Shown: positions 48,312 through 54,695 of the stretch, one piece after another
Position numbering within the stretch: the stretch's first letter is position 1
Layout of the letters: every line of letters begins with the position of its first letter
DNA from: Methanoregula sp. PtaB.Bin085
Lineage (GTDB): Archaea; Halobacteriota; Methanomicrobia; Methanomicrobiales; Methanospirillaceae
Length of the DNA stretch: 64,000 nucleotides
Direction of reading: 5' to 3'
Assembly: GCF_002067035.1 (NCBI RefSeq)
Contig: NZ_MVQB01000027.1
Location: forward strand, 248,001 to 312,000
The notes under the pieces: generated by a model
The model's database searches: none
What the model was told of the DNA's origin: nothing
Seen by the model: the letters and a program-made list of their open reading frames with translations, nothing else
Position numbers and translations under genes: made by a program

Positions 48312-49634
48312 ATGATCATGTGGTTTCCGGATATCAGGACAATTTTTCTGATGATCTTCCTTATCAACGCCTTCCTGACGCTGATGATCTTTGCCTACTG
48401 GAAGACCCAGAAGACCCATGACGGATTTGCTCTCTGGGCAGTCAGCCTGCTCTTCCAGTCGCTTGCCTACCTTCTCTTCATGCTCCGGGGAGAGGTCTCC
48501 GATCTTCTCTCAATACCGGTCGCCAACGTCTTCAGCATGCTCGCCATGATCATGCGGGTCGATGCGATACGGCGGTTCATCTGGGGCAGGCCGATACCGG
48601 CGGGGTATTATTCACTGCTGGTCCCGATCTTCATCATCTACTGGTATTATACGTACATTCTTGATTCGATCATCCTGCGGGCCCTTGTTTCAACGCTGTG
48701 TATCGCCCCGGTGCTTATCATTGCGGGATACCTTGCCCTAATATCTGTCGAGCGGGAGAACCGGATTATCCGGTACCTGTTCGCAGCGTCCCTGACCATC
48801 CCCGCCTTCATCCTGATCGTCCGTCTCGCTGCCTGGTTCGCTATCCCAGAACAGTATACCCTGTTCAGCACGGATATCTTCAACACGGCGTTCTTCGTCA
48901 TCGCGATGATCGCCGATATCCTTGCAACCGGTTTCTTCCTGATGCTGAACATGGTCCGCTCCCAGAAGGAGCTCCGGCAGACCAATGAAAAGCTGAACCT
49001 CCTCTCCAGTATAACGCGGCATGATATCAGGAACCAGCTCCATGCCCTTTCCGCCTATCTTGAGTTGTCCCGGCAGGCCGTCGGGAAGCTTGACACTGCC
49101 ACCGAGCTGATTGCCAGGGAAGAGCAGATCGTCGCGACTATCACCCACCAGCTCAATTTTACCGGGGATTACCAGGATATGGGAATCGCTGCTCCTGTAT
49201 GGCAGAACGTGGACGATGCCGTCAGGACCGCTTCTGCTGCGTTGCAACTCAGGGATGTACGGATCGATATCGACCGCCAGGATCTCGAGGTCTGGGCCGA
49301 CCCGTTGTTAGGCAAGGTCTTCTACAACCTCATCGACAATGCCCTGAAATATGGCGGCGGGAAACTCTCGGTTATCAGGATATCCTCGCGGGAGACGGGA
49401 TCGGGACTTGCCCTGGTTTTAGAGGATGACGGCGCCGGGATATCGGAAGGGGACAGACAACACCTTTTCGAGCGCGGGTATGGAAAGAATACCGGCCTTG
49501 GCCTGTTCCTCTCCCGCGAGATCCTGTCAATCACCGGGATTACCATCAGAGAGACCGGAAAAACAGGTGGCGGGGCACGTTTCGAGATGACCGTGCCGAA
49601 AGGCGGGTACCGGTTTATAAAGAGAGAAACCTGA
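48312..49634 (+). CDS. Membrane histidine kinase
   Basis: A 440-residue sensor kinase. The N-terminal 215 residues form about seven membrane helices with no extracellular domain, a 7TM-type input. The kinase core has the H-box SSITRHDIRNQL (His near 237), N-box NLIDNALKYGG, DDGAGI and GKNTGLGLFLS. GGAGA upstream of ATG 48312 supports the start. No response regulator gene is adjacent, so it may act on a distant partner. Confidence 0.9.
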   Translation: MIMWFPDIRTIFLMIFLINAFLTLMIFAYWKTQKTHDGFALWAVSLLFQSLAYLLFMLRGEVSDLLSIPVANVFSMLAMIMRVDAIRRFIWGRPIPAGYYSLLVPIFIIYWYYTYILDSIILRALVSTLCIAPVLIIAGYLALISVERENRIIRYLFAASLTIPAFILIVRLAAWFAIPEQYTLFSTDIFNTAFFVIAMIADILATGFFLMLNMVRSQKELRQTNEKLNLLSSITRHDIRNQLHALSAYLELSRQAVGKLDTATELIAREEQIVATITHQLNFTGDYQDMGIAAPVWQNVDDAVRTASAALQLRDVRIDIDRQDLEVWADPLLGKVFYNLIDNALKYGGGKLSVIRISSRETGSGLALVLEDDGAGISEGDRQHLFERGYGKNTGLGLFLSREILSITGITIRETGKTGGGARFEMTVPKGGYRFIKRET

Positions 49635-49704: not shown

Positions 49705-50073
49705 ATGAATGAAAAGCCGTTTGAATTCTGGAGGATGCGGCGCGGCGGCTCATTCACTATCACAAGAGCCAACCTGCCGGGCATCTTCCGGCAGGTGGTC
49801 TCCCCCGCCCGCCTCATCGCAGGTAAGAGATCAGAGACCACACTCCGCGAGATAGTACAGGCAAAACAGATCGGGATCGAAAAGATCAATGCGGAACGGA
49901 TTGTTCTCACCCGCCATTCCATCCCCTTCAATGCTGCAGCAATTTTTTGTATCTGTGAAGTGTGGAACAGGTTTAAGGACTGGCGCTATACCGACACATC
50001 GATAATCACCATGAAACAGGCCTGCCGGGACCGAAATACGCAGGACTCCCGCCGGATCCCGGCGAGCCGGTGA
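49705..50073 (+). pseudogene. Decayed copy of the HTH regulator gene
   Basis: The 122-residue frame matches the regulator at 51707 over its first 85 residues (EKPFEFWRMRRGGSFTI, KINAERIVL, HSIPFNAAAI). The recognition helix is damaged (GISRQAVSRAL has become GIFRQVVSPAR with a proline), the original start is lost (ATATG to ATTTC), and the cysteine-rich end is replaced by unrelated sequence. Half of the palindromic operator, GTTGACAT, is retained upstream. Confidence 0.75.
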
Positions 50074-51674: not shown

Positions 51675-51685
51675 TTATTATAAGG
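51675..51685 (+). promoter_or_regulatory. TATA box of the five-gene operon
   Basis: TTATTATAAGG. Its center lies about 27 bases before the ATG at 51707, so the message should be leaderless. Confidence 0.65.
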
Positions 51686-51710
51686 TCAACATGCATATGT
51701 TGACATATGC
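51686..51710 (+). promoter_or_regulatory. Two overlapping palindromes over the operon start
   Basis: TCAACAT-GCAT-ATGTTGA (51686-51703) and GCATATGT-TG-ACATATGC (51693-51710) are both perfect in their arms. They cover the expected transcription start and the start codon of the HTH gene, the classic place for an autorepressor. Confidence 0.75.
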
Positions 51711-52153
51711 TTCTGCCCACCAATGAAAAGCAGTTTGAGTTCTGGAAGCTGCGGCGCGGCGGTTCGTCCAACATCACAATAGCCAACCTGCTGGGCATTT
51801 CGCGGCAGGCAGTGTCCCGCGCTCTCCTTGTCATGGACGAGAAGATCGAGACCACCCTCCACGATATGGCTCAGGCAAACCAGATCGAGATCGACAAGAT
51901 CAATGCGGAGCGGGGCGTTCTCATCGGCCGGTCCATTCCCTTCAATGCCGCCGCAATCATTTTTATTTCGGAAAAGCACGGGATCCAGGTCTGGTACGAG
52001 CACGACGGGAACTGCGGGTCGTGCCAGCGGTACACCGAATGCATCGAGCTCCTCTGGGACTATGCAACCGAACTCGGCATAAAAATTGAAAAAACCGCAG
52101 ACCCGACGAAAATGGCAGAAGAACTGTTCGCGAAAGTGAAGGCGATAGTCTGA
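51707..52153 (+). CDS. HTH transcription regulator with C-terminal cysteine cluster
   Basis: A 148-residue DNA-binding protein. A helix-turn-helix at about 23-45 (ITIANLLGISRQAVSRALLVM) is followed by an EDKI-type helix and a sensing half with C103, C106 and C112 (CGSCQRYTEC), which could hold zinc or an Fe-S cluster. It is the first gene of a five-gene overlapping operon and has palindromic sites over its own start, so autorepression is likely. The stop overlaps the next start (TGATG). Confidence 0.8.
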   Translation: MLLPTNEKQFEFWKLRRGGSSNITIANLLGISRQAVSRALLVMDEKIETTLHDMAQANQIEIDKINAERGVLIGRSIPFNAAAIIFISEKHGIQVWYEHDGNCGSCQRYTECIELLWDYATELGIKIEKTADPTKMAEELFAKVKAIV

Positions 52154-52944
52154 TGACGCGGTTTACTGACGTCATACGGGGATGGTTCGGGTGGTGCCCG
52201 ATGGATACCGCAGGGAGGCAGGAACCTGCCAAAAGTATTGCGGGAGAGCCCCATGACAGGGATACCGCAGGTGCCGGCCCGGTGGAACGGCGCACGGCGC
52301 TTTTTCTGTACCTCACCCTTGCAGTCGTGGGGCTGTCCTGGATCACCGGCATCGTTGCTCTGCCCTATCTCCCGGAGATTATCCCGGTCCACTGGAATAT
52401 CTACGGGGAGCCCGACGGGTTTGCAGGGCGGCTTGCGGGAACCTTCGGCCTTCCCGCAATCATGACCCTTGTCGCGCTGCTCCTCGTTGTGCTGCCCCGC
52501 TTCGAACGAATGCGGGAGCAGTTTGAAGAATCCCGTGATATCTATACCATGGTCGTCTTCGCAGCAATGTGCCTGCTTCTTGGTATCCATATCACAGCGC
52601 TGCTCTCATCAGCAGGGTTGGACCTGCCGGTGGCAGTCGCCTTCCCGGTGCTGCTCGGATTCTTCTTCATCGTGATCGGCAGCCTCATGCCCTCGATCCG
52701 GAGAAATACCACCGTGGGATTCCGCCTGCCATGGACGGTGCGGGACGATACGGTCTGGAGGAGGACACACGAGCATGGCGGGCCGGTCTTTGTCATTGCC
52801 GGCATCCTGATCATCCTTGCAAGTACCGCTGCAGGGGCAGCGGCAATGCCGGTCGCGTTCGGGATCATTGTCATTGCCTGCGTGTATATCACTGTCTGGT
52901 CCTACCGGCTGGCACGCGCCGGAACAACGGAGGCAGCGGAATAA
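52153..52944 (+). CDS. SdpI/DUF1648 family membrane protein
   Basis: A 263-residue membrane protein with an N-terminal cytoplasmic segment (IRGWFGWCPMD) and about six helices. LPEIIPVHWNIYGEPDGF is the DUF1648 motif, and TVGFRLPWTVRDDTVWRRTHEHGG is the SdpI motif. In Bacillus, SdpI is the immunity and signal protein controlled by its autorepressor SdpR; the order regulator-SdpI seen here is similar. The gene overlaps both neighbours. Confidence 0.85.
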   Translation: MTRFTDVIRGWFGWCPMDTAGRQEPAKSIAGEPHDRDTAGAGPVERRTALFLYLTLAVVGLSWITGIVALPYLPEIIPVHWNIYGEPDGFAGRLAGTFGLPAIMTLVALLLVVLPRFERMREQFEESRDIYTMVVFAAMCLLLGIHITALLSSAGLDLPVAVAFPVLLGFFFIVIGSLMPSIRRNTTVGFRLPWTVRDDTVWRRTHEHGGPVFVIAGILIILASTAAGAAAMPVAFGIIVIACVYITVWSYRLARAGTTEAAE

Positions 52945-53546
52945 TGACCACAAAACCGGGTGCATGGATACGGGACCGGCTTGGCTGGTGCCCGAATAAT
53001 AGTATGGTCCGTTTCGGCAGGCCTGCAACACGGGATCCGGATTTCCCTGTACGGACTGCCGGCAGTCTCCCGGGCAGGACCGGCAGTTCAGGAGAGCCGG
53101 GCGCACCATCCCAGCGGACCTACGAGCATACCCAGACCGGGATGCTCCAGATCATCGCGGTTCTTGCAATCATCGTCATCATCCTTGTCATGACACTCCT
53201 CTTCGGGCCGCTTCTCATCCCTCTTGCGGTCCTGTTCCTCCTTGTTGTCACGGTGCTCTGCTTCGCGACACTGACCGTCACGATTGAAGACGATGCAGTG
53301 CGTATCCGCTTCGGACCCCTCGGTCTTGTCCGGAGGGAATGGCCGGTCCGGGACATCGTTGCAGTCTCCGAGGTCACGAATCCCTGGTACTATGGGTACG
53401 GGATCCGCTGGACGCCGCACGGGCCGCTCTATAATGTTTCCGGAAGCCATGCGATCGAGATCCTGCTCCTCTCTGGGAAAAAAGTCCGGATCGGCACTGA
53501 TGAGCCGGAAGCGCTGGTGAGGGCTATCAGCCATGGAATCCGTTAA
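52944..53546 (+). CDS. Membrane protein with PH-like domain and GWCP motif
   Basis: A 200-residue protein: N-terminal AWIRDRLGWCPNN, a proline/glycine-rich linker (25-60), two membrane helices (65-115), then a beta-rich C-terminus LTVTIEDDAVRIRFGPLG, REWPVRDIVAVSEV, IEILLLSGKKVRIGTDEPEALV typical of bacterial PH-like (bPH2/DUF) domains. GGAGG ten bases before the ATG supports the start. Overlaps the next gene by 14 bases. Confidence 0.75.
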   Translation: MTTKPGAWIRDRLGWCPNNSMVRFGRPATRDPDFPVRTAGSLPGRTGSSGEPGAPSQRTYEHTQTGMLQIIAVLAIIVIILVMTLLFGPLLIPLAVLFLLVVTVLCFATLTVTIEDDAVRIRFGPLGLVRREWPVRDIVAVSEVTNPWYYGYGIRWTPHGPLYNVSGSHAIEILLLSGKKVRIGTDEPEALVRAISHGIR

Positions 53547-53877
53547 CAGGAGAGATCTGCGGATACAAGGGGGAATCCGTGGATGGCCGGGGTGGTGCCT
53601 CTCTGCGCCTGCACGGCAAGCACGGATCCCGGAAATACCGGATCAGCGCTGCAACCCTGTCGAACCGGATCCGGGGTTGCCCCCTGCAGGAAAAAACCTG
53701 ATTATGCCGGTTGTCATACCGTGCTGGATGACAGCAATATCCCTGCTCATTTTGATTTCTACCGGCTTTGTCGGCGGCAATGCCTGGTGGCCTGTCTTTG
53801 TCCTTATCGTGATCGTCATATTTACAATCATTCTTTGCCGGTCGCACCAGACCGGCATTCAGGATGAATCCCGATGA
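53533..53877 (+). CDS. Small membrane protein with GWC motif
   Basis: A 114-residue protein with N-terminal GGIRGWPGWCLSA, a Pro-rich stretch and two membrane helices (VIPCWMTAISLLILIST, WWPVFVLIVIVIFTIILC). I do not know the family. It shares the IR-x3-GWC motif with the two preceding products. Overlaps both neighbours. Confidence 0.65.
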   Translation: MESVNRRDLRIQGGIRGWPGWCLSAPARQARIPEIPDQRCNPVEPDPGLPPAGKNLIMPVVIPCWMTAISLLILISTGFVGGNAWWPVFVLIVIVIFTIILCRSHQTGIQDESR

Positions 53878-54695
53878 TGCTTCAAAAGCTGTCGTTCCTC
53901 TGCCTGATGCTTGTGTTGGTAATTTTCGCAGCCGGTTGTACCGGCACAGACACTCAGTCATCCCCGGTTCCTGCGTCTCTGGCGATTTCTCCCGATCCAC
54001 CCATTTTCAGGACAACCGGAGTTACCGTGTCTCTGCAGCCGTCAGCTGCCGCGGCAGCAGAAGCGGTACCGTCCCCGGTACCGGCCAGGATCTTCAGCGG
54101 CGAATACCGGTGGGCGGAGTACCGGATCAACAACACCATAACATTACCTCCCAATTCCCGCTACCAGTGGGAGTATGCGGCAAGGATCGAACGTTCGTAT
54201 GAGGAGTGTAACGGAACTCCTGCAATCCATGAAAACGTGACCGTCACCGGTGATTACGGCGAATGGATTGGCAATGAGCTGGTCACTACAAAAAACGGTT
54301 TCCACGCCACGGAGAACATGTACTATGAGCGATCGACGAAACGTATCCTTGGCGGGACCTTCACCAGCTCCGGTGCCGGGAGGAATTACTTTTCCGAGAC
54401 TGTTCCCGAAGATGTAGTATATCGCGGAGACCATGCCGGGGGGTGGCTGCTCATTTCCCCGTTTGAAGACCTGAACACCTCATTGTCTTATGATGGAAAG
54501 GATCCCGTCACCGTACCGGCAGGCACGTATCGGGATGCCCGTAAATATACCGGGAACTTCCGTAATCTGCCCCGCTACCCGATGACCTTCTGGGTAGCCG
54601 AAGACATTCCTGTGCCGGTCCAGTACCGGATCAGCAACCCGGATCTTGGAGGCGAGGATCCGGTCCAGACATTTGAACTGATTGCCTGGGGGTGA
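53874..54695 (+). CDS. Exported lipoprotein, last gene of the five-gene operon
   Basis: A 273-residue lipoprotein with lipobox IFAAGCTG and a large beta-rich extracellular part (RYQWEYAARIERSYEECNG to FWVAEDIPVPVQYRIS). The central YTGNFRNLPRYPMTFWVAE recalls outer-surface beta domains, but no family is certain. Two ATGs in tandem at 53874 and 53877 overlap the stop of the small membrane protein. Confidence 0.7.
   Translation: MMLQKLSFLCLMLVLVIFAAGCTGTDTQSSPVPASLAISPDPPIFRTTGVTVSLQPSAAAAAEAVPSPVPARIFSGEYRWAEYRINNTITLPPNSRYQWEYAARIERSYEECNGTPAIHENVTVTGDYGEWIGNELVTTKNGFHATENMYYERSTKRILGGTFTSSGAGRNYFSETVPEDVVYRGDHAGGWLLISPFEDLNTSLSYDGKDPVTVPAGTYRDARKYTGNFRNLPRYPMTFWVAEDIPVPVQYRISNPDLGGEDPVQTFELIAWG

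Follow-up and report, generated by a model that had tools for sequence, protein, structure and literature searches.

A regulator, its operator, and a run of tagged membrane proteins

In the 64,000-nucleotide stretch of Methanoregula sp. PtaB.Bin085 analyzed here (the window), five open reading frames (ORFs) on the forward strand (51707-52153, 52153-52944, 52944-53546, 53533-53877, and 53874-54695) overlap at their stops and starts and form an operon, as a first-pass annotation of this DNA had described. The operon encodes a 148-amino acid (aa) regulator with a helix-turn-helix (HTH) and a predicted Tfx/EnfR-like "eighth note" fold (51707..52153), three membrane proteins that carry a short N-terminal tag, and an accessory lipoprotein. 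Across Methanomicrobiales, Methanosarcinales/Methanotrichales, and Archaeoglobales, a three-part unit is conserved that consists of the regulator, a palindrome, and a variable run of tagged membrane proteins. The best overall explanation of this unit, to which we give about an even chance, is a feedback-controlled membrane-protein operon with docking tags.

The second gene (52153..52944) encodes a 263-aa protein with approximately six transmembrane (TM) segments by hydropathy, and matches to SdpI/DUF1648 families (PF13630, E = 6e-17; PF07853, E = 2.5e-16) bear out its first assignment as SdpI-type; it begins with the tag MTRFTDVIRGWFGWCPM (GWCP; 52153..52203). The third gene (52944..53546; 200 aa, two TM segments) begins with MTTKPGAWIRDRLGWCPN (GWCP; 52944..52997), with the GWC core seen in 205 genes of C-type operons (defined below); it had been called PH-like, and the possible bacterial-PH-like domain corresponds to a weak match below the cut-off (PF03703, E = 0.026). 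The fourth gene (53533..53877) encodes a small protein of 114 aa with two TM segments (body family 6) and the variant tag GGIRGWPGWCL (GWCL; 53569..53601). "GWC" had been taken for one gene of the operon, and is instead the N-terminal tag of genes 2, 3, and 4. The fifth gene (53874..54695; 273 aa) encodes an untagged lipoprotein, correctly named as such, with lipobox AAGC (FAAGC-T), for which a Pfam search gave no family.

We identified 48 relatives of the regulator in public genomes, and matches, including some decayed copies, in the order (59 of 150 genomes) and in the phylum (71 of 393 sampled genomes); most of these genomes are metagenome-assembled, and relatedness inflates the counts given here and below. 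The nearest relative of the window regulator is that of another Methanoregula sp. (L003; 89% identity). The order of the five genes, the conservation of which had been suggested as a check, is not kept: 128 loci show 59 different gene orders, and the full set of five window genes is absent from every other locus. The system is nonetheless real, its conserved elements being regulator, operator, and tags, with the match of the tags to the regulator type. SdpI-like genes occur in 19 of the 128 loci, relatives of genes 3 and 4 in 17 and 11 loci, respectively, and relatives of gene 5 in five, some of them at operon ends. The cassette proteins fall into at least ten families without mutual BLAST matches, including DUF1673, DUF6159-like, SdpI/DUF1648, PH-like, and small two-TM proteins and, outside the order, an AglB/STT3-core-like tagged protein (weak match). 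The latter, encoded behind the regulator in Methanothrix and Archaeoglobales relatives (L046:6441-7232 and L047:5852-7009), resembles the soluble core of the oligosaccharyltransferase AglB/STT3, with a weak Pfam match in L047 and a WWDYA motif in Methanothrix.

The operon promoter contains a TATA-like element, TTATTATAA (51675..51683, forward strand), where a TATA box had been annotated. Of the two overlapping perfect palindromes noted with it, GTCAACA-TGCATA-TGTTGAC (7+6+7; 51685..51704) is conserved, whereas relatives have not retained the second (51693-51710, GCATATGT-TG-ACATATGC). The conserved palindrome lies between the TATA box and the start codon, two bases from the latter, and is the sole exact match in the window. 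Among 130 regulator promoters, it is found at a fixed place (-22..-3 from the start codon), mostly ending 1-3 nt upstream of the start codon, with at least 5 of 7 arm pairs in 123 promoters; a 7/7 inverted repeat was found in 62 of the 130 real promoters versus 1 of 130 shuffled ones, and paired changes occur at two positions (C-G/A-T and C-G/T-A). In 117 of 130 promoters, a TATA-like hexamer starts 28-32 bp upstream of the start codon (at -28 in 71 and at -30 in 36), so the transcript is probably leaderless, and repression is predicted because the operator overlies the predicted transcription start site.

Operator variants track variants of the predicted recognition helix (regulator codons 33-40, RQAVSRAL; 51803..51826). 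In the C class, the operator GTCAAC-N8-GTTGAC accompanies the helix SRQAVS[RKH]; in the A class, GTAAAY-N8-RTTTAC accompanies TRQGVSQ. The two operator types are split by regulator positions 32 (S/T, with one exception), 35 (A/G, without exception), and 38 (RKH/Q, without exception), and mixed half-sites (GTCAAC/GTTTAC or GTAAAC/GTTGAC) are found in Methanosarcina. The fixed position of the palindrome, its compensatory changes, and this covariation with the helix give strong comparative support to the autoregulation proposed in the first-pass annotation, and we regard it as very probable that the regulator controls its own operon.

Whole-genome searches recovered further operator copies at the promoters of unlinked genes, including a C-class operator before a Yip1-domain gene (in this genome and four relatives) and an A-class operator before a gene for a large secreted protein (in 6 of 6 searched genomes with the A class), and by comparison the regulon extends beyond the tagged operon. 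The Yip1-domain membrane protein of this genome is untagged, and its site (G000:C43:96431-96450; L243), just below a TATA-like sequence, is the second perfect operator in the genome. The sites before the secreted-protein genes (L250, L251, L254, L255, L262, and L263) lie near the tagged operon, and the protein in L251 has a weak DUF3821 match.

Fold and cysteine site of the regulator

The AlphaFold2 model of the regulator (predicted local distance difference test [pLDDT] 90.6; predicted template-modelling score 0.84) comprises two short helices, a long stem helix, an antiparallel sheet, and two C-terminal helices. This order equals that of the "eighth note" fold of Tfx (MTH0916) and EnfR (TON_1525), which is composed of a flag, a long stem helix, a sheet, and two C-terminal helices (PMC10570040). 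The best Foldseek match was EnfR (PDB 8hno) at a probability of 0.90, but with E = 0.08 and a template-modelling score of 0.34, and a PDB sequence search with the regulator profile gave HTH-level matches only, with EnfR at E = 0.28. Against the NCBIfam tfx model (TIGR00721), the window regulator scored 19.6 bits (E = 6.6e-4), below the 60.25-bit cut-off, with weak matches in 36 of 45 regulators (best E = 9e-6). Because its sequence falls outside the curated Tfx family, we name the regulator Tfx/EnfR-like rather than a member of Tfx. There are parallels at the DNA level: EnfR is a dimer on a pseudo-palindrome centered at -21 from the translation start, comparable with the conserved palindromic site of the window, and Tfx is encoded directly upstream of its target operon. 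Unlike Tfx and EnfR, the regulator described here has an additional HisCys3 site, and its targets would be tagged membrane proteins and itself.

The C-x2-C-x5-C sensor of the first-pass annotation is present, although as part of a longer motif, the putative [4Fe-4S] site H99-x3-C103-x2-C106-x5-C112 (52001..52042). H-x3-C-x2-C-x5-C is kept in 45 of 45 aligned regulators and was lost in 1 of approximately 112 distinct intact ones (L133, which lacks the His, has other damage besides, and looks decayed). The HisCys3 [4Fe-4S] sites of NuoG N5 and of [FeFe]-hydrogenase (PF10588 family, NADH-G_4Fe-4S_3) have an identical ligand spacing, although the putative site is here in a regulator; PF10588 was matched by 28 of 45 regulators (best E = 3.8e-4). 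A metal site is likely at this position and an iron-sulfur (Fe-S) site, somewhat less firmly, is probable; judged from the motif, the site is most likely occupied by a [4Fe-4S] cluster, which would be sensitive to oxygen or redox state and form the sensing element. Another redox-responsive regulator of methanogens, MsvR, has conserved cysteines, and its own promoter contains a conserved motif to which it binds (PMC3729527); unlike the regulator of the window, MsvR has a V4R domain, no HisCys3 motif, and no tagged operon.

The N-terminal tag and its pairing with the regulator

The C-class tag has the consensus M-x-R-h-S-E-x-I-R-x-W-L-G-W-C-P-N (core IRxWLGWCPN), and the A-class tag M-T-R-V-S-E-I-A-E-H-W-L-G-L-C-R-K-x-P, in which AEHWLGLCRKPP is the counterpart of IRxWLGWCPN. 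Since approximately 50-70 aa of mostly positive net charge separate the tag from the first TM segment, the tag is probably cytoplasmic. In gene 2, GWCPM is invariant in seven aligned relatives while the linker behind it varies, and the tag is predicted as a short helix within a low-confidence tail; the predicted fold as a whole is of low confidence (pLDDT 65) and was taken only to hint at a mobile tail. Tail length, charge, and variable linker are the pattern that would be expected of a mobile cytoplasmic tail bearing a short motif. A lipobox was rejected as an identity for the tag, there being no hydrophobic stretch ahead of the Cys.

Of 112 regulator entries, 102 had a first downstream gene that matched the tag pattern, and most of the misses inspected were one-residue variants or wrong-frame picks. 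Genome-wide tag counts are pattern searches, and the one-by-one reading in four further genomes covered 30 fetched loci. By such searches, true N-terminal GWCP tags in the genome of the window are confined to this operon, and its other SdpI-family ORF, outside the operon, has no tag; this untagged SdpI/DUF1648 ORF (L002; G000:C13) appears frame-broken in the assembly.

In 247 of 247 genes, the tag type is that of the nearest upstream regulator (GWC in 205 genes of C-type operons and GLC in 42 of A-type operons), and the tags are never mixed in the eight loci in which both operon types stand side by side. A tree of body family 0 from which the tag was left out requires five changes of class, at least four of which are forced by supported branches, and the tag matches each time; body families 2 and 5 each add one class change, again with a matching tag. 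Because body families thus moved between operon types repeatedly (at least six independent moves), the pairing on the tag side is not one inheritance event. The moved genes in L028 and L082 (families 2 and 5) have kept the remainder of the C-class tag (CPN, CPH), but have L where that tag has W. On the regulator side, the classes are distinguished by positions in the recognition helix and in the C-terminal domain (84, 107, 108, 115, 116, 141, and 144). Among these, position 108 is in the Cys loop: with Glu108 (A class, Methanothrix; two separate supported clades), basic residues follow the tag Cys in 32 of 32 cases versus 12 of 93 without Glu108, a link that is suggestive only.

The tagged arrays include a family that is already on record. 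DUF1673 (arCOG06827) was previously noted only as an expanded Methanosarcina family with an "MGWCP motif" (PMC4158269; PMC4390880), and "MGWCP motif, DUF1673" is a single table line in PMC4158269. The view that the system was not yet described is therefore largely right, although its motif was on record; in the open-access library searched, no text was found on the regulator, the operator, or the tag pairing. In the window, genes 2 and 3 resemble that family in having an N-terminal GWCP followed by a membrane protein (gene 4 has GWCL); unlike in those records, the motif is here seen on unrelated families and tied to a regulator. Against the DUF1673 model (PF07895), genes 2 and 3 score only weakly (12 bits versus a cut-off of 30.4), and family-1 bodies at other loci pass the cut-off. 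DUF1673 arrays begin directly behind the regulator and operator and contain up to approximately eleven tagged genes, and 29 of 30 genomes with DUF1673 have the regulator. The "MGWCP motif" arrays known from Methanosarcina (DUF1673) are instances of this system.

Proposed mechanism and alternative explanations

We propose that a dimeric regulator of the Tfx/EnfR fold would bind the palindrome that separates the TATA box and start codon of its own gene, thereby repressing the whole leaderless operon, with a [4Fe-4S] cluster in the C-terminal HisCys3 site as the sensing element. The downstream genes would be exchangeable, unrelated membrane proteins with a free cytoplasmic N-terminal tail that opens with the short helical tag, and the tag would be a docking motif recognized by the regulator that its operon encodes, with the contact probably in or close to the Cys-cluster loop. 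Docking would hold the regulator at the membrane and thereby link operon expression to how much of the tagged proteins is present or to their state; alternatively, the regulator may be recruited to the membrane in order to be switched. From the covariation, we slightly favor contact between the tag and the regulator of its own operon. More tentatively, the portable tag, found on membrane proteins of unrelated families, may serve as ligand to a dedicated Fe-S autorepressor, regulator and tag forming a lock-and-key pair of which one cell can have two or more orthogonal versions; we advance with similar reserve the idea that membrane capture may relieve repression. We know of no regulatory system on record whose regulator recognizes a tag common to its whole operon.

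The docking step is modeled on Bacillus subtilis, in which SdpI captures SdpR at the membrane (PMC1626106). As in that system, an autorepressor is followed by an SdpI-family membrane protein, which had led to the suggestion of an archaeal SdpR-SdpI toxin-immunity or stress module of five fixed genes. The likeness may hold for the mechanism (membrane capture), but as a description of the locus it is highly improbable: the SdpI-like gene is optional, and the gene order is not conserved. Capture as proposed here would also differ, in using an N-terminal tag that is portable and occurs on many proteins unrelated to one another. SdpR is an ArsR-type repressor, and the fold of the regulator differs from it; the window regulator has no curated-level match to SdpR (NF033789) or ArsR, and NF033789 was touched by one of 45 relatives (E = 0.06). 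No SdpC-like toxin gene was seen beside the operon, for which no systematic search was made. There were no defence-family matches of note either; a defence system was rejected as an identity, PADLOC having given a single marginal match (CARF_TM, E = 0.005) to the TM part of gene 3.

Several points weigh against the docking mechanism. The window regulator is below the curated PF10588 cut-off, and some of the class-separating C-terminal positions (84, 115, 116, 141, and 144) may reflect core repacking only. The tagged set was picked by GWC/GLC regular expressions, so conservation of the tag is partly by construction, although the W/L split is not. That split was tested on the tag side and not on the regulator side, type-A regulators being one clade: regulator type changed once only, apart from the charge change in Methanothrix, and a test of the charge link by independent pairs has no power on the regulator tree, where there are only two changes. 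The single change of regulator type is also what lends weight to a reading in which a third partner (membrane insertase, quality-control protease, or assembly scaffold) would read the tag and recruit the products, with operon types inherited as blocks; tag and operator variants could then be co-inherited, and the short helical tail is like targeting signals. We nevertheless consider a third partner unlikely. The body families that switched operon type each took the matching tag, the adjoining of both operon types in one genome would demand of a single partner two operon-confined specificities, and the tag genes and DUF1673 track the regulator across genomes.

Two further explanations concern the tag residues themselves. 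If the tag Cys were a cofactor ligand (in a shared Fe-S or metal site, or a Cys-Pro haem motif), the tagged proteins would act in redox sensing or receive clusters instead of serving as docking partners. Both tag types retain the Cys and GWCP contains the CP dipeptide, but the regulator already has four ligands in its HisCys3 site, and A-type tags mostly have CR instead of CP (34 of 42), contrary to a CP haem motif, which was rejected as an identity for the tag on this ground; we regard a ligand role as improbable. Heavy reshuffling of the cassettes, in turn, would be consistent with a functionless peptide left by exchange or conversion of cassettes via homologous 5' ends. Yet synonymous codons of the tags are hardly more alike within an operon than between genomes (0.558 versus 0.487), and the invariant Gly and Pro residues are encoded by freely varying codons, placing conservation at the protein level. 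Because codon likeness is scarcely higher within operons, gene conversion is not the cause of the likeness of the tags, and a recombination by-product is largely refuted.

The regulator-tag pairing makes of the orphan "MGWCP motif" family a concrete, testable regulatory system, present also in genera that can be cultivated, Methanosarcina among them. Its predictions are Fe-S regulators of a new class built on the Tfx/EnfR scaffold, a precisely defined operator in two classes of specificity, and a short docking peptide whose two classes match. If the mechanism holds, any membrane protein that acquires the tag would be brought under a feedback that measures itself and responds to redox or membrane state; if the tag binds the regulator, arbitrary membrane proteins could be placed under membrane-based feedback, and an orthogonal regulator-tag pair would be available for archaeal synthetic biology.

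Upstream of the operon, the window contains a decayed second copy of the regulator (49705..50073, forward strand) without the Cys motif, which has 63% identity to the intact regulator over residues 2-90 (89 residues) and a half operator upstream (...GTTGACATTTC). The operon behind this copy is gone, with an opposite-strand amidohydrolase in its place, and the copy is a relic of a second operon. Just upstream of it, a membrane histidine kinase (HATPase_c, SpoOB-type helix) is encoded at 48312-49634.

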